A stretch of DNA of 64,000 nucleotides. Source: Bacillota bacterium. GTDB lineage: Bacteria; Bacillota; DTU025; MWDF01. The position numbers and the translations under genes are program-made. This document shows positions 5,935-17,109 of the stretch, one piece after another. The DNA lies in NCBI GenBank assembly GCA_029565935.1, contig JAKQNF010000013.1, positions 62,001 to 126,000 on the forward strand. The letters run 5' to 3'. Position 1 is the stretch's first letter; each line of letters starts with the position of its first letter. A model generated the notes under the pieces. The model saw nothing but the letters and a program-made list of their open reading frames with translations. It searched no databases and had not been told where the DNA came from.

Positions 5935-6283
5935 GGGGGCGATACGGTTTCGACGGGGAGAGTTGCGACAGTCTAGGCGAGCCGAGTTGTCCGCAAACTC
6001 GATAAACAGGCGGAAAACACATAAAAGCCAATAATTACGCTTACGCTGCTTAATTAAAGCAGACGTCCGAAGCGGCCCCATCCCGGAGGACTGCAAGGGC
6101 GCCAAATAAACCGGGGATGCTCTTTCGGTAATTCTCGGAGCCGGAGGAAAAGATTATCGAGATAGCGACTGGAGAGCCGGCCGAAGGGCGCTTTAGGAGC
6201 GAAAATTGAAACTGCGGCTACGCTCGTAGAAGGGGCTGAAGTGACCTTTTCGGACCCGGGTTCGACTCCCGGCGCCTCCACCA
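5935..6283 (+). ncRNA. ssrA: Transfer-messenger RNA (tmRNA)
   Basis: One-piece tmRNA. The 5' end GGGGGCG pairs with CGCCTCC at the 3' end (one G-U) to form the acceptor stem, followed by discriminator A and an encoded CCA ending at 6283. The tRNA-like domain has GGTTTCGACGGGG at the 5' side and a T-arm with GGTTCGACTCCC. The tag reading frame begins at the resume codon GCC (6027-6029) and stops at TAA 6051-6053, giving ANNYAYAA. The hairpin CTGCTT-AATT-AAGCAG closes over the stop codon. The gene sits directly after smpB. The ends should be accurate to a few bases because of the acceptor stem. Confidence 0.95.
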
Positions 6284-6287
6284 TAAA

Positions 6288-6332
6288 TTGATCGAGGCAT
6301 TGATATGATACCTCGGTCAACACTTTAATTTT
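6288..6332 (+). terminator. Probable terminator of ssrA
   Basis: TTGATCGAGG (6288-6297) pairs with CCTCGGTCAA (6311-6320), with one G-U and a 13-base loop, followed by the loosely T-rich CACTTTAATTTT. It starts five bases after the encoded CCA. The tail is imperfect. Confidence 0.6.
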
Positions 6333-6346
6333 GCATATATGCAAAA
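6329..6346. repeat. Perfect 18-bp palindrome downstream of ssrA
   Basis: TTTTGCATATATGCAAAA equals its own reverse complement. It stands alone, just past the ssrA terminator at the left edge of the AT-rich island. It could be an operator, a recombination scar or chance in AT-rich DNA. Confidence 0.5.
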
Positions 6347-6493
6347 CCCGTAATACAAGGTATTTACCTCATGAGGAGAAATGAAATAGTCCTGCTAAAA
6401 ATAACAGGGGTATTGTTAAGAATCGGACCTTATCTATCTGTATCGTAGTCGTCATCACTCCAATTCAGATTTGCCTTAGATGCGCACAAACGC

Positions 6494-6525
6494 AAAAGCC
6501 CGTCAGACATCAAAATCTGACGGGC
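6494..6525 (-). terminator. Intrinsic terminator of the phosphoesterase gene
   Basis: On the minus strand GCCCGTCAGA (6525-6516) pairs with TCTGACGGGC (6507-6498) over an eight-base loop, followed by TTTT at 6497-6494. It is 60 bases past the stop codon of the minus-strand gene at 6584. Confidence 0.85.
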
Positions 6526-6583
6526 CATATTAATCGTTGATGTTCGTTGGAGCGAATATAGAATGCTTGGTGGCATACACCGT

Positions 6584-7894
6584 TTATTTGCTGACGCCTT
6601 CGCCAATATCTATCAGGGTACCATCCTCTGCAAAGCTGTAGAGCTTCGCCGTATCCTTCTCACCCGCAGTAATGACAGTAAAAGTACGGGCGGCATCTGG
6701 ATAGTTAGTATTATTGTCTATCCAAGTTCCGGTGTTGATGTAGTAGGTTCCGTAGCCGATGTTCCATAATGCTGGTACGTGGGTGTGACCAAACACGACG
6801 ATGTCCACAGTATCATTCGGATTGTCAATATACTGCGTCTTGGCTTGTTTAAAGAAATAATTCCAATCTAACGTACCGGATACCGCCTCGATAAAGGTGT
6901 TTTGAACCTTGATGTTATTGAGCTTCTGCCGCGCGTCCCATGTGCGCTGAATATTCCTGAACAGTACGGGCGCCGAGATCGTTCCGTCCGCCTGCTTGGC
7001 CGGGAAGAAATCGAGATATGTATAAGTGCCGTCAAAACCCGCGATATGCATATCGAAAATATTCTCATCGAGACTTTCGTTGGGTGTAATTCGCTCTGAG
7101 ATATTCTTGAGAAGCGAGTAATAGATGTAAGCACCGTACTGATCCGTATCGGCTTGATCCGGCACATTCTTAACTACTGGCAGCGCTTTTGCTACTTTTG
7201 GATAGCCTTCCAGCACCCATGTGGCGGCATATCGGGCATAAAGATACCCGGCTGGCAAAATCGTATCGTCGTTGCCGCACAGCTCCGCATTTGTTACCGT
7301 ATCCGGCGCAGAGAATACATCATATCGATGACCATGTTCAATCACGATCTCGTTCCTGTCTCCGGTATAATAAACACCCAGTCCTTCAGCATCTCTTGCC
7401 TGTATGATTCCGGGTATTGTTTCATCCAGTACGTTTGATTCAAGCAGCATATCATGATTCCCTATTACGTATACCAACTTTATACCGCTCGAAATGACGT
7501 TTTTCAATTCATCTATTACGCCCTGATTATTGATGATACAATCCTGATAAAACTTGGTTGAGTCAGAATAGCTTGGGTAATAAACCGGCAGGTACCATTC
7601 ATCCAGAAAATCACCTGCAATGACAAGTTCCCGCACATCGTCCGTCTGCTGCAACCGTTGCAGAAATTCAATCATAAGGGGCCGATTATCCAAGGTTTCG
7701 GTGTAACTATCATCTATGCCCAAGTGAAGGTCGCTTATGACGACGATCTTATTTCTTTCATCGCCCGCTTCCCACAAGGGCTTCGCCGCCTCAAGCGTGC
7801 TGGTTTTCGCCGCACTTCCGGTGATGAGCAGTGCGAGAGAGGCTACTATGCTGCATATCAGCATGAAAGACAGAATCAATTTTTTCATATTCAC
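6584..7894 (-). CDS. Exported calcineurin-like metallophosphoesterase
   Basis: Predicted secreted dinuclear-metal phosphoesterase of 436 aa. An N-terminal signal peptide (about residues 1-28) is followed by the metallophosphoesterase motifs DLHLG (residues 56-60 region), GDFLDEW, GNHDM, EHGHRYD and FGHTHVP. The substrate is unknown. Translation may begin at GTG 7894 or at ATG 7888; AAGGA is four bases from the first and ten from the second. The gene is more AT-rich than its neighbours and uses different codons, and it lies in the stretch between ssrA and position 11100 that appears to be acquired. It has its own terminator. Confidence 0.88.
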   Translation of the reverse strand: MNMKKLILSFMLICSIVASLALLITGSAAKTSTLEAAKPLWEAGDERNKIVVISDLHLGIDDSYTETLDNRPLMIEFLQRLQQTDDVRELVIAGDFLDEWYLPVYYPSYSDSTKFYQDCIINNQGVIDELKNVISSGIKLVYVIGNHDMLLESNVLDETIPGIIQARDAEGLGVYYTGDRNEIVIEHGHRYDVFSAPDTVTNAELCGNDDTILPAGYLYARYAATWVLEGYPKVAKALPVVKNVPDQADTDQYGAYIYYSLLKNISERITPNESLDENIFDMHIAGFDGTYTYLDFFPAKQADGTISAPVLFRNIQRTWDARQKLNNIKVQNTFIEAVSGTLDWNYFFKQAKTQYIDNPNDTVDIVVFGHTHVPALWNIGYGTYYINTGTWIDNNTNYPDAARTFTVITAGEKDTAKLYSFAEDGTLIDIGEGVSK

Positions 7895-8345
7895 ATTATC
7901 CTTCTATTCCATAGATATTTTGACTGCGCTTTTGGGCATTCACATACGCCCATTTCAATCGATTCTCTATATGAGAATCAGCTTACCGCATACCGGTAGA
8001 TCTGTTCCGGCACGCTTCCGTGCGGGGTGAAGGCGGGATAGTGCTGCTTTGGCCAGACATTTCCGCCGGAGTTGGGACAAACAGTGCCCGATCCTCCCTC
8101 CGCCTTGCGTTATTGCTCAAGAATGATTATTCCTCATAAATGCGGCTTTTGTAAATACAACATACTCTAACACAGGTGTTTTTTATTACCTGCCGCCTGA
8201 ATAAACAAAATATGATCATTAAAACAATGATGAATGACCCACTTACGATGATGAGTGACAAACTGGCAAGCCTATAAAAAGGAAGTCATTTCCACCCAGA
8301 TCATGATAAACGGCGTAGAGGGTGAAGAAGTAGAGCCTCAATGCT
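7895..8345. other. Degenerate intergenic stretch
   Basis: About 450 bases between the phosphoesterase and the first recombinase remnant. Short open frames exist on the plus strand, for example from 8255, but none shows family motifs, a good SD or a plausible length. I read it as decayed mobile-element DNA. Confidence 0.4.
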
Positions 8346-8690
8346 TCAACTCGATTTCGCTTCCACTATTTGACCGGTATTCAGTATGCCGTCGCGGAAC
8401 ACCGTCGCTCGGTCAAGGATCGCAACCCACAGCCTTTCGTTCCACTCTTCGATTACGAGGGGCTTTTTCTTTAGCTCCTCGATTGACAGCCGGATTTTAC
8501 GGTTTTGGTCATGCTTCTGCTCTTCTCTGCCGTTAGCCACGTAAACTATGCCAGGGCCTTTTCGTAGCGAGCAAGCAGCCCATTATATTTCTTAGCGGAT
8601 TCCTCCTGAGATTGAGCGGTGTATGCGTTTTCCTTACTGCATCCTGGACCAGTTCGCCAACAACCTCAGGAGGCATACCTTAAAAGTACG
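8346..8690 (-). pseudogene. Serine site-specific recombinase, C-terminal remnant 1
   Basis: The minus strand encodes a broken tail of a large serine recombinase (TndX/TnpX-like). From right to left the frames read PPEVVGELVQDAVR, then ENAYTAQSQEESAKKYNG with LLARYEKALA before a stop, and after a shift the segment running from GREEQKHDQNRK to EEWNERLWVAILDRATVFRDG. The coiled-coil pattern and the W-N-E-x-L-W region followed by V-F-R-D-G are typical of the C-terminal end of this family. The catalytic N-terminal domain is absent. At least two frameshifts or stops separate the parts. Confidence 0.7.
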
Positions 8691-8925
8691 ATGCCCTTAC
8701 TAAACGGTATGAGGCGGTGGCAGCAGATCTGTAGTGGTTGCAAAACCTTTGCATTCTTCGTCTGTAATAGGACAAAGCAATGTCCCTTTTCATCCGCACC
8801 TTAAAAAATTGCCGGAAGTCCTCGATGCCTGGAATGACACCATCTGGACGGTGATGCTCGAAAAGGCGGTTATCACAAGGACGGCAGTATTACGTTCGTT
8901 TTTTTGTGCTTTATTGCACGGTGAT
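8682..8925 (+). pseudogene. Serine site-specific recombinase, C-terminal remnant 2
   Basis: The plus strand carries a second, different remnant of the same family: KYDALTKRYEAVAADL, a stop-ridden gap, then MSLFIRTLKK, LPEVLDAWNDTIWTVMLEKA and, after another shift, KDGSITFVF. It corresponds to the same C-terminal region as the neighbouring minus-strand remnant but is not identical, so two recombinase genes contributed. It overlaps the 3' end of the MATE gene by about 15 bases. There is no catalytic domain, so it cannot be active. Confidence 0.7.
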
Positions 8926-10275
8926 TCTACCCAGATTCAGCAAACTCTTGAATGTAGGAATAAACAGTATGACACTGACAAGGCAAGCACACAGTTCTGC
9001 AATAGGAGTTGCCCATGCGACACCCACTGCGCCAACGAACCAATTCATCAAAAACATAAATGGCACATCGACTGTTCCTTTTCTTATAAAGGATAGGATA
9101 AGGGGCTGAGTTTGCTTCCCGATTGCTTGAAAAATGGTTATTACCATCATGGTGACGGCTTGCATTGGGCATATGAGGCAAAGAATCTTCAAAAACCTCT
9201 GTCCATATGCAACGGTTGCTTCGTCTGCAATGAAGAACCTAGATACCGGTACTGCACAGAAGAATAAGAAAAGCGTTGTTACTACGGCTAATGTCATGGT
9301 GTAAGCGGAATTTGTCTTGATCACACGATTCATGCGTTTGTAATTCTTTGCGGCATAGCTATAACCGATCAGAGAAATAACGCCTTGTGTCATACCAATG
9401 GACACCGCGAAGGTCAGCATATCAATTTTCTTTGCGATCCCCATGCCGGCGATAGCTGCATCTGAATAAGAGGACATCATGTTGTTCAGTATCGTATTGG
9501 ATAATATGCCCATCAAATTCATGATTAGGTTTGGAAGTCCGACAACGCAAACTTCTTTGGGAATTCCTTGCTTCCATGTAAAATAGGAGGGGCTTGCGGT
9601 AATGACTGTTTCGTTTTTTAGTCTATAGATGATGACAGCAAAATATAGCATGGCGATTACATTTGATAGGGCAGTTGCGATAGCAGCACCAGCAATGTCC
9701 ATCTTGAAAATAAATATGAAGATCGGGTCGAGAACAATATTCAAAACTCCGCCAAGGGCAACACCGAAGCCTGCTTGCTTTGCCAGTCCTTCTGCTCGTA
9801 TCAAATGGGCAAGGCAGGCATTCATAACCGTAGGAACCGCACCAACGGTCACAGTCCAGAATAAATAAGAGAAACAATGGTCATATGTTGTTGCTTTTGC
9901 CCCAAGTATAGGCAGAACAAATGGCTTAAGGAATAGGAATGATAGTCCGTAAACGAGTGCAACTCCAGCGGCAGACCATATACAAAAAGAAGCCGTTCTT
10001 TTTGCCTTATCCATTTCCCCCTTGCCAAGGCATCTAGAAATCAGGCTGGAGCCACCAATACCAAAGAGGTTAGCAATTCCCGTTAATAGAATAAAGGGTG
10101 GCATGCAAAGTGTTGCGGCAGCTACTTGTGAAGGGTCGTTCAGCTGCCCTATAAAGAAAGTGTCTGCCATATTGTAGATTACAGTGATAAGTTGACTGAT
10201 GACCGTCGGTATTACTAGAGACACAATTGCCTTGCTGACCGGCATTTTTTCGTATAGATATTGGTTATCCCGCAC
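8911..10275 (-). CDS. MATE-family multidrug/Na+ antiporter
   Basis: A 454-aa polytopic inner-membrane protein of the MATE family, which exports cationic drugs or metabolites by exchange for Na+ or H+. Twelve hydrophobic segments in two homologous halves are visible; the first half carries YNMADTFFIGQL and GIGGSSLISRCLG, both typical of the NorM/DinF-like branch. The start is a GTG at 10275 with a GAGAG-rich SD. The gene is AT-rich and intact, whereas the TetR-type regulator just upstream is broken, so expression may be unregulated. Substrate cannot be told from sequence. Confidence 0.93.
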   Translation of the reverse strand: MRDNQYLYEKMPVSKAIVSLVIPTVISQLITVIYNMADTFFIGQLNDPSQVAAATLCMPPFILLTGIANLFGIGGSSLISRCLGKGEMDKAKRTASFCIWSAAGVALVYGLSFLFLKPFVLPILGAKATTYDHCFSYLFWTVTVGAVPTVMNACLAHLIRAEGLAKQAGFGVALGGVLNIVLDPIFIFIFKMDIAGAAIATALSNVIAMLYFAVIIYRLKNETVITASPSYFTWKQGIPKEVCVVGLPNLIMNLMGILSNTILNNMMSSYSDAAIAGMGIAKKIDMLTFAVSIGMTQGVISLIGYSYAAKNYKRMNRVIKTNSAYTMTLAVVTTLFLFFCAVPVSRFFIADEATVAYGQRFLKILCLICPMQAVTMMVITIFQAIGKQTQPLILSFIRKGTVDVPFMFLMNWFVGAVGVAWATPIAELCACLVSVILFIPTFKSLLNLGRITVQ

Positions 10276-10279
10276 TTTT

Positions 10280-10849
10280 CATTTTCTCTCTTTCTGTATG
10301 CAGACCGCTGATAGAGCAACGAATGGCGATTTGGTAGCTTTCGTCTACACTTACGGTATGGCGAAGGAAAATCCCGGCATCCTCTTGTGAAATAGAGCCA
10401 TGGATTAATCCCCTCAAAACTCGCTGCCAGCATAAAGAATTGTTCTTCTTCCAGCCCGTATCCTGAAAGAGCCTGCAATATGGGGACAATTCTCTGAGAC
10501 GCAGACTGTATTTCAGAATTTTTCATCAGATGATGAGAAGACATGATAACTCTATTAAGTCCCTGTGTTCTTTTGTATAGGTTCTATATACAGATGCTAA
10601 TGCCAAAACTGCTTCATCCTCAGTCTTTCCGTTAGCATTAAACTAAACAATTCTTAGTTGCTCAGCAGCATATCGGCTAACCTCAGTAAGCAACTCATCA
10701 AGGCTCTTGATGTGATTATATAGTGAAGGTGTCTTTATTAGCAGCTTTTCCGCAAGTTCTCGCATAGAAATTTCCTCCTTTCCGCTTTCTTCAATCATTT
10801 CAACTGCTTGTTCAATGATTGCATCCTTAGTTATTCCTTTTTTTACCAT
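10280..10849 (-). pseudogene. TetR/AcrR-family regulator, disrupted
   Basis: The first 68 codons (10849-10643) encode a complete TetR helix-turn-helix with ISMRELAEKLLIKTPSLYNHI. A TAG then interrupts the frame, after which the same frame continues as NGKTEDEAVLALASVYRTY. Two frameshifts later the reading becomes ILQALSGYGLEEEQFFMLAA and then VSVDESYQIAIRCSISGL, the end of a WHG-type TetR C-terminal domain. One stop and two shifts therefore inactivate an otherwise recognisable gene of about 190 codons. It precedes the MATE gene in the same direction and probably once repressed it. Confidence 0.75.
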
Positions 10850-10851
10850 TA

Positions 10852-11052
10852 TTACTCATCCTTATCAACAACTATTGTCGTTATTTCACCAGAAGAAGAT
10901 AACGGCCGTTCGCAGCACCTCTCCGTTACCGATGAAAGGGCTTCCATGATATGTCCGATGCCGACCATAACGAATATCAACGCCTTTTTACAGATAACCT
11001 TGAGGCCGACTGCCGACAGCACAAGTTGAATCCAATTCCCAATAATTTTCAA
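10852..11052 (-). CDS. Small hypothetical protein upstream of the TetR remnant
   Basis: An open frame of 66 codons ending two bases before the TetR start, with a hydrophobic middle (about residues 8-35). Its last codons contain the AAGGA that would serve the TetR gene. I recognise no family, and the antisense strand is also open, so this may be a chance frame or the end of a decayed gene. It lies at the right edge of the AT-rich island. Confidence 0.2.
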   Translation of the reverse strand: MKIIGNWIQLVLSAVGLKVICKKALIFVMVGIGHIMEALSSVTERCCERPLSSSGEITTIVVDKDE

Positions 11053-11128
11053 ATCGGAGTGTGCAGTTGGATCCTTATAGGAGAAATAAATAGAACGTCA
11101 GATAATCAGCCAGGGAAATCATAGATAT

Positions 11129-12157
11129 TTATTTAAGCGTCATGGCTAATCTCATCACTAGCTTGATCGGCAGCGAAGCGTCAGCCATCTGGTTCAGATC
11201 GCCTACGAAATAGAGGTCCTCAACAGGATAGTAGAAGGCAAACGAGCCCGTTGACCCGGAGTGGCCTATGAGCTGGCCTTTTCCCAGGAAGAGCGTATGA
11301 ATGCCGCTCAGGGGTATCTGCATCAGGCCTCCGCCGTAGCGGATCGGGGAAAAAGAAGGTTGCAGTTCCTTGAAGCGGGAAATCTTTGTAAGCACGTCTA
11401 TATCGAACAGCTTTCCCCCGAAGAAAGCCTTCATGATTCTCATAAGATCGTTCGCCGTCGACACACAACCCCCGCTAGCGCGGCTGCTCTTTACGAACTT
11501 TGGCCGATGCAGCAGCTTTTCCCTACAATAGATGCCAGGGACAGGATCGTTTTCGTTTTCGGGCAGGTAAGTACCTTTCAAGCCCAAGGGCATGAATATA
11601 TGGCGATCGTACGCTTCGGATAATCCCAGACCCGTAGTATTTTCGATTATCCTGCCGAGTATGTCGTAGTTTATATCCGCATAATGCGCCTTGGCTCCAC
11701 CTCCGGGAGCGAAGTGGGGCCTGAGACTCTTTACTTCCCCTAGCAGATCCTCAAATGAAAAGCAGAAATCCTCGCGCATCAGTCTACGCTTTAGCGCGCC
11801 CTCCTCAAAAGCGTCAGGTAATCCGCTGATTTGGAACAGGAGGTCGGCTATCGTCAGCTCCTTACTATAATCCCTTCCATTCAAAACGTGTATACCTTCT
11901 AGTGCGGCATCATCGAAGCGTTCGATTGCCCTGTCCCTTAATGAGAGTTTCCCCTGCTGATCAAGAGCCAGAACGCAAGCAGCCGTCAACATCTTCGTGA
12001 TGCTGGCCATTAACATCGGCGTGTCCAAACCCTTGCCGCCGCAGCTTCTGTTGTATCGGAAGCCTCCGGAGGTATCCTCGATATAAAGGACAGCTTCATG
12101 TACGGCTTCCAGACCGGCGATTCTATCAAATATCATCCCTACTTTGTCAGTTCCCAT
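11129..12157 (-). CDS. Serine hydrolase, beta-lactamase class C / PBP4-like fold
   Basis: A 342-aa member of the beta-lactamase/D-alanyl-peptidase family. The catalytic SxxK is SITK (about residues 53-56), the second-motif tyrosine is in HYADINYD, and the third motif is GHSGSTG in place of KTG. Many such proteins are esterases or peptidases rather than true beta-lactamases, and I see no signal peptide, which argues against a periplasmic antibiotic-resistance role. The ATG at 12157 has GAGGAGG five bases upstream. The base composition is that of the core genome, so the island ends before this gene. Confidence 0.85.
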   Translation of the reverse strand: MGTDKVGMIFDRIAGLEAVHEAVLYIEDTSGGFRYNRSCGGKGLDTPMLMASITKMLTAACVLALDQQGKLSLRDRAIERFDDAALEGIHVLNGRDYSKELTIADLLFQISGLPDAFEEGALKRRLMREDFCFSFEDLLGEVKSLRPHFAPGGGAKAHYADINYDILGRIIENTTGLGLSEAYDRHIFMPLGLKGTYLPENENDPVPGIYCREKLLHRPKFVKSSRASGGCVSTANDLMRIMKAFFGGKLFDIDVLTKISRFKELQPSFSPIRYGGGLMQIPLSGIHTLFLGKGQLIGHSGSTGSFAFYYPVEDLYFVGDLNQMADASLPIKLVMRLAMTLK

Positions 12158-12787
12158 AGTGCCTCCTCGAAGTGATTATCTTCCTTGGATCTATTTTATG
12201 GTATCATGTTTGCTTCTAGACCTCAGATCCATCAGCGTCGTTCTTAGATGGTAATGCGCCATCACTTATGTCCCTACGATCAGCTCGGACCAAGTACAGG
12301 CACTGACGGTAGGAAAATATGCAATGGCGCAAGTAGCTTAAGCACCCTATGAACTAGTAGTTAACCATGCATTTCTGTGTCCTCTTGTTACGTGAGAAGG
12401 AGAACCTAGAAAGGAGAGCCCAGGTGGAACTTAAGGACTTATGTAACAGCGTTCTTAGATAATCCTCGTCTACGTTCTCGTTCAGGCAGTACTCCCTTAC
12501 GTTATCATGGACTCTTTTGTCCGCGAACTCGTATCCATATAACATCAACATCTCTAAACCTCACATTCCGGTTTTCCTCCATGTTTCATCCTGGAACTTA
12601 CGCCGGGCTTTTACATCCCGTCGCAGGATAGCATAATCGGTTCCTGTAAAAGATACCTATACCTAACCTACCGTTCAGAGCGATGAGGTGAAAAACCTTG
12701 ATAATTAGTATCCATCCGAGGGGCATCATTCCCCTTCGGTCGTCATATCGCTCAAATCGATCATCATTACGTTTATGTCCTGTTCAT
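12158..12787. other. Long intergenic region with one weak small frame
   Basis: About 630 bases between two minus-strand genes. Apart from the weak 65-codon frame listed separately, I see no coding signal, strong hairpin or RNA gene. Confidence 0.5.
12354..12551 (-). CDS. Possible small protein of unknown function
   Basis: A 65-codon frame beginning MLMLYGYEFADKRVHDNVRE. A GAGG lies six to seven bases ahead of the ATG. The first 40 residues are mixed and charged and look protein-like; the last 25 are rich in Ser, Arg and Lys and less so. No family recognised; it may be a remnant. Confidence 0.2.
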   Translation of the reverse strand: MLMLYGYEFADKRVHDNVREYCLNENVDEDYLRTLLHKSLSSTWALLSRFSFSRNKRTQKCMVNY

Positions 12788-14504: not shown

Positions 14505-15059
14505 ATGACGTCATTGGCCAACTATCTCTCGATAACGAGGATAGCGCTTGTCCTTTCGCTTTTGCTCATAAAGCCGCTGAGCACGCCCTTCTTCGTCATC
14601 TACATCGTGAGTGGCCTGACCGATACCCTAGACGGTTATGTAGCCAGGAAGACCAACTCCGAGAGCAAGCTAGGCGAAAAGCTTGACTCGGCTGCAGATC
14701 TTGTCATGGTAATCGTGCTCCTGGTGATATTCCTACCTTCGTTCAAGATAAATCCCGTACTGATCGTCTGGATAGCAGTAATCATTATCACAAGACTGAT
14801 TACTATGGCCTTGGTCAAGCTCAAATACAAGACGTTCGGCATGCTTCACACCTACGGCAACAAGATCACTGGTTTCCTTCTTTTCCTTGCTCCGATATTC
14901 CTGAAATTAGTGGAGATCAACGCGATGCTCAAAGCGCTATGCACGGTAGCAAGCATAGCGTCGCTGGAGGAGCTTGCGATACATATATCCTCTGATGAGT
15001 TCGTCGCTAACAGGAGGAGCTTGATTATGATCAAGGGGCGGACGGATAGGCAGGCCTAG
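14505..15059 (+). CDS. CDP-alcohol phosphatidyltransferase family enzyme
   Basis: A 184-aa integral membrane enzyme that transfers a phospho-alcohol group from a CDP-activated lipid or head group. The family signature D-G-x2-A-R-x8-G-x3-D-x3-D is complete in the stretch from DGYVARKT to GEKLDSAADLV (about residues 40-62), with several hydrophobic helices after it. It resembles PgsA/PssA-type enzymes, but the exact substrate is not decidable. ATG 14505 is chosen; a TTG at 14490 would add five residues and lies ten bases after AGGAGG. It is followed by the ACP/oxoamine synthase gene, which raises the possibility that it adds a head group to a sphingoid-type lipid. Confidence 0.82.
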   Translation: MTSLANYLSITRIALVLSLLLIKPLSTPFFVIYIVSGLTDTLDGYVARKTNSESKLGEKLDSAADLVMVIVLLVIFLPSFKINPVLIVWIAVIIITRLITMALVKLKYKTFGMLHTYGNKITGFLLFLAPIFLKLVEINAMLKALCTVASIASLEELAIHISSDEFVANRRSLIMIKGRTDRQA

Positions 15060-15185
15060 ACACGGCTACCTTCCTCGTGCTGCATGATTTGGTATATTAT
15101 TAGATAAGTAATAGTTGCCGATCAAGTACAGCCGTGTCCCCGATTGTCAGGCGAATGGCATTTGATTACTACCTGGGAGGCATTG

Positions 15186-16721
15186 ATGAAGCCGATTGAT
15201 ACAGCAGGAATTACGTCATTGGACGTCGAGGAGAAAGTCAGGGAAATGGCGGCAAAGGCCATTGGGATAGATTCAAGCACCATTGGATCTGCCGATGCGC
15301 TCTCCGAGAGGTTCAAGCTCGACAGCCTACAGGCGATGGAGATCCTCGCGAAAGTAGAGGATGAGTTCTCGGTACTGATTCCAGACGAGGAATATTTCAA
15401 GTGCAAGTCCGTAAGCCAGATCTCCAAGCTCGTGATGAAGGCATTGGGCCTTGAGCAAACGGAAGGAGAGCCCGAGAAGGAAAGGGCTAAGCCCACAGCA
15501 AGGAAAAGGATTGCGGATTTCGCATCATCCAGGGAGTACGCAGCATTTCTAGAGAGGAAGAGATCCATCGAGGAGCTCGGGAATCCATATTTTATAAAAC
15601 ACGATTCAAAGGTAGCCGATACTTCGATCATTTCAGGGAAGAAGACGCTTAATTTTGGATCGTATAACTATGTGTGCCTATCGGGTGATCCGGAGACCGT
15701 AGAAGCTGCAAGAGAAGCTGCATCCACTTACGGGACATCGGCTTCAGGAAGCAGGCTGCTGGCAGGGGATAAGTCGTTATATAGGCAGCTGGAAGCCGAG
15801 ATAGCAGATTGGAAGCACACAGAGGACGCCATAGTCATGGTCAGTGGGCACGCGACGAACGTGACTACGGTAGGTTGCTTATGTAACGAGAACGACCTGA
15901 TACTTTACGATATCCTGTCCCATAACTCGATAGTCCAAGGTTGTTTGCTCTCGAAGAGCACGTCGAAGTCATTCCCGCATAATGACTTCGATGCGTTGGA
16001 ATCTCTCCTCAAGGAGCACAGGGACGAATATGAGAAGGTGCTTCTCATCGTCGAGGGCGTTTATAGCATGGACGGCGACATAGCACCCATACCGGAGTTC
16101 GTAAGGCTGAAGAAAAAGTACGGGCTGCTTCTTATGGTGGATGAAGCGCATTCGACTTGTGTGCTGGGAGAGCACGGAGGGGGCGTGGACGATTACTTCG
16201 GCCTTGCTCCAGACGACATCGACATAAAGATGGGGACGCTTTCGAAGGGGCTGGGAACCTGCGGAGGATACATCGCCGGCAGTAAACAGCTGGTCGAATG
16301 GCTGATGTACAATGCCCCGGGTTTCGTCTTCTCAGTCGGCATAAGCCCTGTACTGGCCGCGGCTTGCCTCGCTGGCATCAAGAAGCTCAGAAGGGACAAG
16401 ACGCCTGTCAAGAAGCTCCATGACAATATCGCATACTTCATGGCAGAAGCCAGGAAAAGAAGGTTGGATACGGTGCTCGCGGGCGAAACGCCCATCATCC
16501 CCATCATGGTCGGTCCTGACGAGCAGTCATTCGCACTCAGCGTGAAGATGCTCGAAAAAGGGGTGTTCGTACCTCCGGCGGTCTATCCTGCGGTACCGAA
16601 GGGAAAGTCTAGGCTACGGTTCTGTTTATGCAGCAAGCACGAACCCTGGCAGATGCAGAAAGCACTGGACGAGCTTGAGAGCGCTGCGCGTGAACTGGGA
16701 ATTGAGCTCCCTAGGAAATAG
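15186..16721 (+). CDS. Acyl carrier protein fused to alpha-oxoamine synthase
   Basis: A 511-aa fusion. Residues about 12-85 form an acyl carrier protein with the phosphopantetheine serine at residue 47 in KLDSLQAMEI. A Lys/Glu-rich linker follows. Residues about 130-505 are a PLP-dependent alpha-oxoamine synthase like KBL, BioF and serine palmitoyltransferase: SGSRLLAGDKSLYRQLE, VDEAHSTCVLGEHGGG, and the Schiff-base lysine at residue 354 in GTLSKGLGTCGGYIAG. The enzyme should condense an acyl group, probably loaded on its own ACP, with an amino acid to give an aminoketone. ATG 15186 has GGGAGG five bases upstream. BioF alone would not need the ACP, and no other biotin gene is near. Confidence 0.9.
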   Translation: MKPIDTAGITSLDVEEKVREMAAKAIGIDSSTIGSADALSERFKLDSLQAMEILAKVEDEFSVLIPDEEYFKCKSVSQISKLVMKALGLEQTEGEPEKERAKPTARKRIADFASSREYAAFLERKRSIEELGNPYFIKHDSKVADTSIISGKKTLNFGSYNYVCLSGDPETVEAAREAASTYGTSASGSRLLAGDKSLYRQLEAEIADWKHTEDAIVMVSGHATNVTTVGCLCNENDLILYDILSHNSIVQGCLLSKSTSKSFPHNDFDALESLLKEHRDEYEKVLLIVEGVYSMDGDIAPIPEFVRLKKKYGLLLMVDEAHSTCVLGEHGGGVDDYFGLAPDDIDIKMGTLSKGLGTCGGYIAGSKQLVEWLMYNAPGFVFSVGISPVLAAACLAGIKKLRRDKTPVKKLHDNIAYFMAEARKRRLDTVLAGETPIIPIMVGPDEQSFALSVKMLEKGVFVPPAVYPAVPKGKSRLRFCLCSKHEPWQMQKALDELESAARELGIELPRK

Positions 16722-16749
16722 ACCGGCAGAATGATTTGGAGTGGTTTGT

Positions 16750-17109
16750 GTGGATTATAAGGAAATGGCCGCCAAGGCAAGCGCGTTCTCCGATGCCAAC
16801 AGGTTAAAGATAATGTGCATGATCGCGAAGAAGGAGACATGCGCCTGCAACATCCTCGAATACATAGGCATAACACAACCGACGTTGTCATACCATATGA
16901 AGCTCCTTACCGAAAGCGGACTAGTGAGGGCCAGGCGGGAGGGCAAATGGACTCTTTACTCGTTGGTAGGGGAGGAATTCGAGAAGTTCGCATCGTCCGT
17001 GAATGAGATAGCCATATGCGACATTGAGGGGCTTCCGGATTTGGATTGCATGTCGGATGAATGTGCGGCGAAAATGGATGAGCAATCGGTGGCCGAAGAG
17101 ATGGAATAG
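16750..17109 (+). CDS. ArsR-family metal- or redox-responsive regulator
   Basis: A winged-helix regulator of about 119 aa. SDANRLKIMCMIAKKETCACNILEYIG carries the CxC of the ArsR metal site on helix 3, and the recognition helix is TQPTLSYHMKLLTESGLV with wing REGKWTLYSL. More cysteines occur in the tail (CDIEGLPDLDC, DEC). GTG at 16741 or 16750 can serve as start; GGAGTGG fits the second. It lies 28 bases after the oxoamine synthase on the same strand, but whether it controls that gene is unknown. A shared terminator follows. Confidence 0.88.
   Translation: MDYKEMAAKASAFSDANRLKIMCMIAKKETCACNILEYIGITQPTLSYHMKLLTESGLVRARREGKWTLYSLVGEEFEKFASSVNEIAICDIEGLPDLDCMSDECAAKMDEQSVAEEME

Follow-up and report, generated by a model that had tools for sequence, protein, structure and literature searches.

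A fused acyl carrier protein-oxoamine synthase beside a CDP-alcohol phosphotransferase in a Bacillota genome: a candidate long-chain base synthase on the SgaB/LCB2 side of its family

Eukaryotic serine palmitoyltransferase (SPT) is a membrane heterodimer of LCB2 (SPTLC2) with LCB1, which uses acyl-CoA and has no acyl carrier protein (ACP). In Pseudomonas fluorescens MYb115 the alpha-oxoamine synthase (AONS) SgaB is paired with the PKS SgaA; it binds L-serine, almost exclusively in preference to alanine and glycine, and with acyl-CoA surrogates forms 3-ketodihydrosphinganine (PMC12134224). The same cluster includes the KDSR-like SDR SgaC; C24-C28 sphinganines are products of the strain, which most likely forms phosphoglycerol sphingolipids as well (PMC12134224). 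The SPT of Rhodobacteria (Caulobacter) uses a dedicated ACP (AcpR), charged by a dedicated acyl-ACP synthetase (AasR) (PMC9386255). Carrier and synthase can also be parts of one protein. A layout termed A-CP-AOS was catalogued in 2013 for Blastopirellula (the planctomycete Blastopirellula marina, A3ZWL3) and Microscilla, without a product, and PigH has two ACPs (PMC3870968). Sphingolipid synthesis is described in the literature for Bacteroidota, Proteobacteria, various other phyla and small Gram-positive groups, and no description for Clostridia was found. In the open-access literature, to which our search was mostly confined, we likewise found no described clostridial protein joining a ligase, an ACP and an AONS, and no described Firmicutes sphingolipid enzyme.

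The window, ie the whole 64,000-nucleotide stretch of Bacillota DNA that was analysed, encodes a fusion of an ACP with an AONS directly downstream of a CDP-alcohol phosphotransferase (CDP-AP). This arrangement had been proposed in an earlier note on the DNA and was confirmed at the same positions by Pfam domains, intact active-site residues and a gene order kept in a second species. The features are as follows; G000 is the window's own genome and G001 that of the second species in its genus ('Firmicutes bacterium ADurb.Bin153').

14505..15059, + strand: CDP-AP, 184 aa; PF01066, 76.7 bits (cut-off 22)
15186..16721, + strand: ACP-AONS fusion protein, 511 aa; ATG start with Shine-Dalgarno GGGAGG; 89% identical ortholog in G001 (L045)
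15231..15434, + strand: ACP domain, residues 16-83; PF00550, 45 bits; DSL motif
15324-15326, + strand: codon of the phosphopantetheine Ser47 of the fused ACP, in the DSL motif
15624..16703, + strand: AONS domain, about residues 147-506; PF00155 (Aminotran_1_2), 162 bits; PDB matches over 147-506, residue columns and tree
16245-16247, + strand: codon of the PLP lysine Lys354 of the AONS, from residue columns
16741..17109, + strand: ArsR/SmtB-family regulator, a possible operon member 19 bp downstream of the fusion; NF033788, 80 bits (cut-off 55); order kept in G001
G000 C36:72605-73411 (L134:9989-10822), outside the window: KdsR-like SDR, 277 aa; best family NF049977, 276 bits (cut-off 400)

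A Pfam search found a single PP-binding domain and a single Aminotran_1_2/AONS domain in the fusion, and the expected functional residues are all intact (Ser47, His246, Asp319, His322, Ser353, Lys354 and Arg478). Comparison of residue columns placed His246, Ser353 and Arg478 at the positions of His137, Ser242 and Arg366 of SmSPT, where Ser242 is predicted to bind the serine hydroxyl (SPT residue roles from PMC3870968). Ala469, in a PAxP loop, is common to all the SPT and LCB2 sequences compared and is absent from Kbl, BioF and PigH; with LCB2 the fusion shares, among others, Tyr160, Glu290 and Glu320 as well. In the AlphaFold model (mean pLDDT 84.9) a helical, ACP-like domain accompanies a part with the AONS fold, and its best match in the PDB is the Sphingobacterium SPT.

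The relationships of the synthase domain were determined with IQ-TREE on 61 AONS rows, supports being given as bootstrap/SH-aLRT. SgaB itself is absent from this tree and is represented by PKS-adjacent AONS from Pseudomonas and Burkholderiales, which were assigned to the SgaB type by gene order. The window synthase lies inside a clostridial clade (100/99). That clade and its sister, which holds the SgaB-type, RkpG, PKS-linked and planctomycete AONS, form a single group (100/99), and the next neighbour of this ACP-AONS group is eukaryotic LCB2 (100/96), not the classical bacterial Spt. Kbl, BioF and a PigH homologue from a Thioclava plasmid cluster together elsewhere in the tree. The earlier note had called for a phylogeny against Spt, BioF, Kbl and PigH, and had named firm grouping with Kbl or BioF, together with no condensation activity on acyl-ACP, as the outcome that would count against its reading; when the clostridial clade was forced together with Kbl and BioF, the AU test rejected the tree (p=4.6e-5). 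Joining the ACP-AONS group to bacterial Spt without LCB2 was also rejected (p=2e-5), and uniting LCB2 with bacterial Spt gave p=0.011 in the same test. The placement of LCB2 next to carrier-linked AONS is to be taken as a lead, because it depends on three LCB2 sequences on a long stem. Should LCB2 indeed belong beside the carrier-dependent group and not with bacterial Spt, the origin of eukaryotic sphingolipid synthesis would become a testable question.

In the standard family models the window synthase scored below the cut-offs of the bacterial Spt models NF047599, NF047600 and NF047603 (269/500, 309/640 and 233/670 bits, respectively), of the BioF model TIGR00858 (354/426 bits) and of two Kbl models (311/460 and 258/493 bits), and all three assignments were rejected on these scores together with the AU tests above. 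The genome's true Kbl is at another locus (L136), beside a threonine-dehydrogenase (Tdh)-like gene, whereas no tdh adjoins the fusion. G000 encodes a further, unassigned AONS (C31; L135:9053-10315), kept across the window's order, which is also below the cut-offs of all the NCBIfam models that it matched (at best bioF 393/426; Spt 385/640). The Thioclava plasmid that supplied the PigH homologue carries, within L152:1-9194, genes in the order class-III aminotransferase, methyltransferase, ACP, PigH-like AONS (545 aa), AMP ligase and KS, an arrangement like that of a prodigiosin-type cluster.

Genomes of bacteria and archaea were scanned and yielded further relatives (L046-L067 and L080), nearly all from clostridial metagenome assemblies, that are 50-59% identical to the fusion over the shared part; among L046-L066, many assemblies come from the rumen or gut. 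By Pfam, most of these proteins are about 1100 aa long and consist of an N-terminal AMP-binding acyl ligase, followed by an ACP and then the AONS. The clostridial clade has 24 members with the window included: 16 are ligase-ACP-AONS proteins, three are ACP-AONS (the window, L045 and L063) and five are AONS only, L067 having given no single open frame in this count. The window protein has the same ACP-AONS C-terminus as, for example, L046 (1107 aa), with one ACP directly N-terminal to an AONS of the same clade, but is without the ligase domain of about 600 aa. Nine of the 24 loci have a KdsR-like SDR gene adjacent to the synthase, on the same strand and within about 30 bp in eight cases and divergent at 11 bp in the other. 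For the two adjacent SDRs tested, each with more than 200 models matched, the best NCBIfam model was NF049977 (3-ketodihydrosphingosine reductase), with 194-204 bits where the cut-off is 400. To make sphinganine from a free fatty acid, a cell needs a ligase, a carrier, a synthase and a ketoreductase.

Each of the known systems shares some of these properties with the window. The SgaB/RkpG-type AONS form the sister clade, have the acyl chain delivered by a carrier and are associated with a KDSR-like SDR, but an iterative PKS, a protein of its own, supplies the chain, the AONS has no fused ACP and the organisms are Pseudomonadota; no iterative PKS adjoins the window's pair. The planctomycete A-CP-AOS protein A3ZWL3 shares the ACP-AONS C-terminus and differs in having the ligase domain. 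In Rhodobacteria the SPT is likewise fed by a carrier, but Spt, AcpR and AasR are separate proteins and the synthase is on another branch of the AONS tree. PigH and the SxtA-type CP-AOS proteins resemble the window fusion in having a carrier protein fused N-terminal to the AONS. On a Diaphorobacter plasmid (L141) the genes for a fatty acyl-AMP ligase, an ACP and an SPT follow one another in the order of the domains in the clostridial fusion. Proteins of about 1130-1220 aa from planctomycetes and Desulfobulbaceae (L069-L109 and L076), with the AONS at the C-terminus, fall inside the SgaB/RkpG/PKS-linked group, and they too would be expected to make a long-chain base.

Comparison of the sequences leads us to consider it rather probable that the fusion makes 3-ketosphinganine, a long-chain base, as an ACP-dependent synthase of the SgaB/LCB2 kind. 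Ser47 of the fused ACP would carry a fatty acyl chain in thioester linkage and pass it to the PLP site, where decarboxylative condensation with L-serine, as the external aldimine at the Lys354-bound PLP, would give a 3-keto long-chain base; the unlinked KdsR-like SDR would then reduce this to sphinganine. In most of the clostridial relatives the N-terminal acyl-AMP ligase would charge the ACP. The window fusion has no ligase domain, and a family search for AMP-binding ligases (PF00501), which was positive in 12 of 14 control genomes, found none in G000, G001 or the third congener G002, so the ACP is presumably charged in another way. Genome-wide absences reported here for the window's genome are from family searches of an assembly that is 98% complete. 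Loading from fatty acid synthase II is most likely, the ligase domain having presumably been lost and the chain being either transferred to the fused ACP or elongated on it. We infer the serine substrate, the chain length, the loading route and reduction by the C36 SDR from sequence comparison. In all three congeners that SDR is on a contig other than the fusion's and adjoins aminotransferase and transporter genes; G002 has it too, although no fusion was found in that genome's assembly, which is 77% complete.

The part played by the CDP-AP is less readily assigned. Its family motif DxxDGxxAR...GxxxDxxxD is complete (DTLDGYVAR...GEKLDSAAD), and the order CDP-AP, ACP-AONS, ArsR is the same in G001, where the fusion is 89% and the CDP-AP 80% identical to the window's; since a second species keeps this order, the observation is not due to chance. 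Head-group transfer is nevertheless one of two readings. We put at just under an even chance the reading that the CDP-AP is the cell's phosphatidylglycerol-phosphate synthase, an accidental neighbour of the synthase with no common pathway, and this would be compatible with the synthase being as proposed above. The family search found no other PF01066 protein in G000, and likewise only one in G001; CdsA, the source of CDP-diacylglycerol, is present in the window's genome; and the best named families of the CDP-AP are ClsA and PgsA. Yet its score falls well short of the PgsA cut-off, and short of that of every functionally named family (NCBIfam equivalogs: PgsA 48.6/109, PssA 39.8/107 and ClsA 51.1/240 bits). 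The two genes are also adjacent and co-directional, and in each of the three genomes of the genus either the two were found together or neither was. In addition, eight of nine genomes from the order's other genera (G003-G011) had no CDP-AP (PF01066), although CdsA was present in all nine of the genomes tested for it. Since most genomes of the order show no CDP-AP, it is probably not a gene that the order requires, and accompanies the fusion in this genus. Six genomes that are 96-99% complete, four of the same order (G003, G004, G006 and G009) and two of the same phylum (G012 and G039), have CdsA (PF01148) with no PF01066 detected.

That the CDP-AP is simply the phylum's usual PgsA or PssA was rejected, because the CDP-AP genes of 17 other genomes align with it only in short stretches, at 24-52% identity; several of those genes adjoin a phosphatidylserine decarboxylase-like gene, as PssA does. 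The idea of a CDP-AP and AONS cassette kept beyond the genus was likewise rejected. None of the clostridial relatives' loci has a CDP-AP beside the synthase, the pairing being seen only in the window's genus, and a tblastn search of plasmids with the CDP-AP gave no match. A better homologue of the CDP-AP (34% identity, E 8e-22) is found in G082, a genome with the fusion, apparently on another contig. An ACP and Spt pair on a Roseomonas plasmid (L140:5989-10396) lies near a diacylglycerol-kinase-like gene and a CDP-alcohol phosphotransferase, an independent case of CDP-AP/SPT proximity.

The adjacent CDP-AP might add a phospho-alcohol head group to the synthase product. A sphingolipid-like pathway, as the earlier note had suggested, is well supported as far as the synthase is concerned, by the tree and AU tests, the kinship with SgaB and the ligase and SDR of the relatives. 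The head-group part did not fare as well, the adjacency being confined to the genus and the CDP-AP scoring below the named-family cut-offs. It seems unlikely, if conceivable, that the genus makes a complete eukaryote-style sphingolipid, in which an SPT step, by an ACP-dependent synthase with LCB2 as its nearest neighbour, is followed by a KDSR-type reduction, and that the divergent CDP-AP attaches a phospho-alcohol directly to the long-chain base or to its ceramide, giving a sphingophospholipid.

A different product was also considered. The AONS superfamily includes enzymes for several amino acids, and PKS-linked AONS without a known product are in the same larger group as the fusion. An enzyme of the same class could thus join alanine, glycine or another amino acid to an ACP-bound acyl chain, forming a deoxy-long-chain base or an amino-ketone that serves as a free metabolite or signal and not as a membrane lipid; apart from the SDR, the loci of the clostridial enzymes have no head-group or ceramide gene as a conserved neighbour. 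We regard this as doubtful, as Ser353 and Ala469 are SPT-like, the adjacent SDRs resemble 3-ketodihydrosphingosine reductase, and SgaB, of the sister clade, is nearly exclusive for L-serine (PMC12134224). Use of the long-chain base to prime or anchor a capsule or glycolipid, as with the rhizobial rkpA/rkpG-type genes, appears improbable. Many of the sister-clade AONS do adjoin PKS and capsule genes, but none for capsule or glycosyltransferases was seen among the genes next to the window's pair (ArsR, MarR, DUF6544, a PPC-domain protein and a P-type ATPase), and the chemistry would in any case begin with a sphingoid base. The alternative of a PigH/prodigiosin-type or other natural-product AONS, raised in the earlier note on account of the ACP-AONS layout that PigH also has, is very improbable and was discarded for the synthase domain, since the fusion has one ACP and not two, the AU test rejected union of the clostridial clade with the Thioclava homologue (p=1e-4) and no pig-like, PKS or NRPS gene is among those neighbours.

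The proposed long-chain base synthase is in a lineage where it was not expected, as the earlier note had remarked: in an even sample of 250 genomes from the window's phylum, none of the 249 others has a match to the fusion at E<=1e-110. In the tree, the closest row from beyond the genus belongs to an assembly of Oscillospiraceae (L052, 97/92), and acquisition of the gene from Clostridia by transfer is therefore conceivable. Such a transfer would not be recent, because the codon composition of the gene pair is ordinary (GC3 0.63-0.67), which led us to reject recent horizontal transfer of the pair, and because the fusion has diverged to 89% between the two species. As far as our searches reached, what appears to be new is the connection of the clostridial ligase-ACP-AONS proteins with the SDR that accompanies them and with the SgaB/LCB2 side of the AONS tree, with the window fusion as a putative ligase-less variant in a lineage not known for sphingolipids. 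If the assignment is correct, gut and rumen Clostridia have a sphingoid-base factory in a single protein, for which the standard Spt models give scores under their cut-offs, and surveys of microbiome sphingolipids would therefore miss these producers. Elsewhere in the window, within positions 5935-12200, the tmRNA gene (5935-6283) has a lower-GC stretch on its downstream side, as an insertion at ssrA would give; the phosphoesterase-like gene (6584-7894) and MATE-like transporter gene (8911-10275) have a GC3 of 0.44-0.52, compared to about 0.65 elsewhere.
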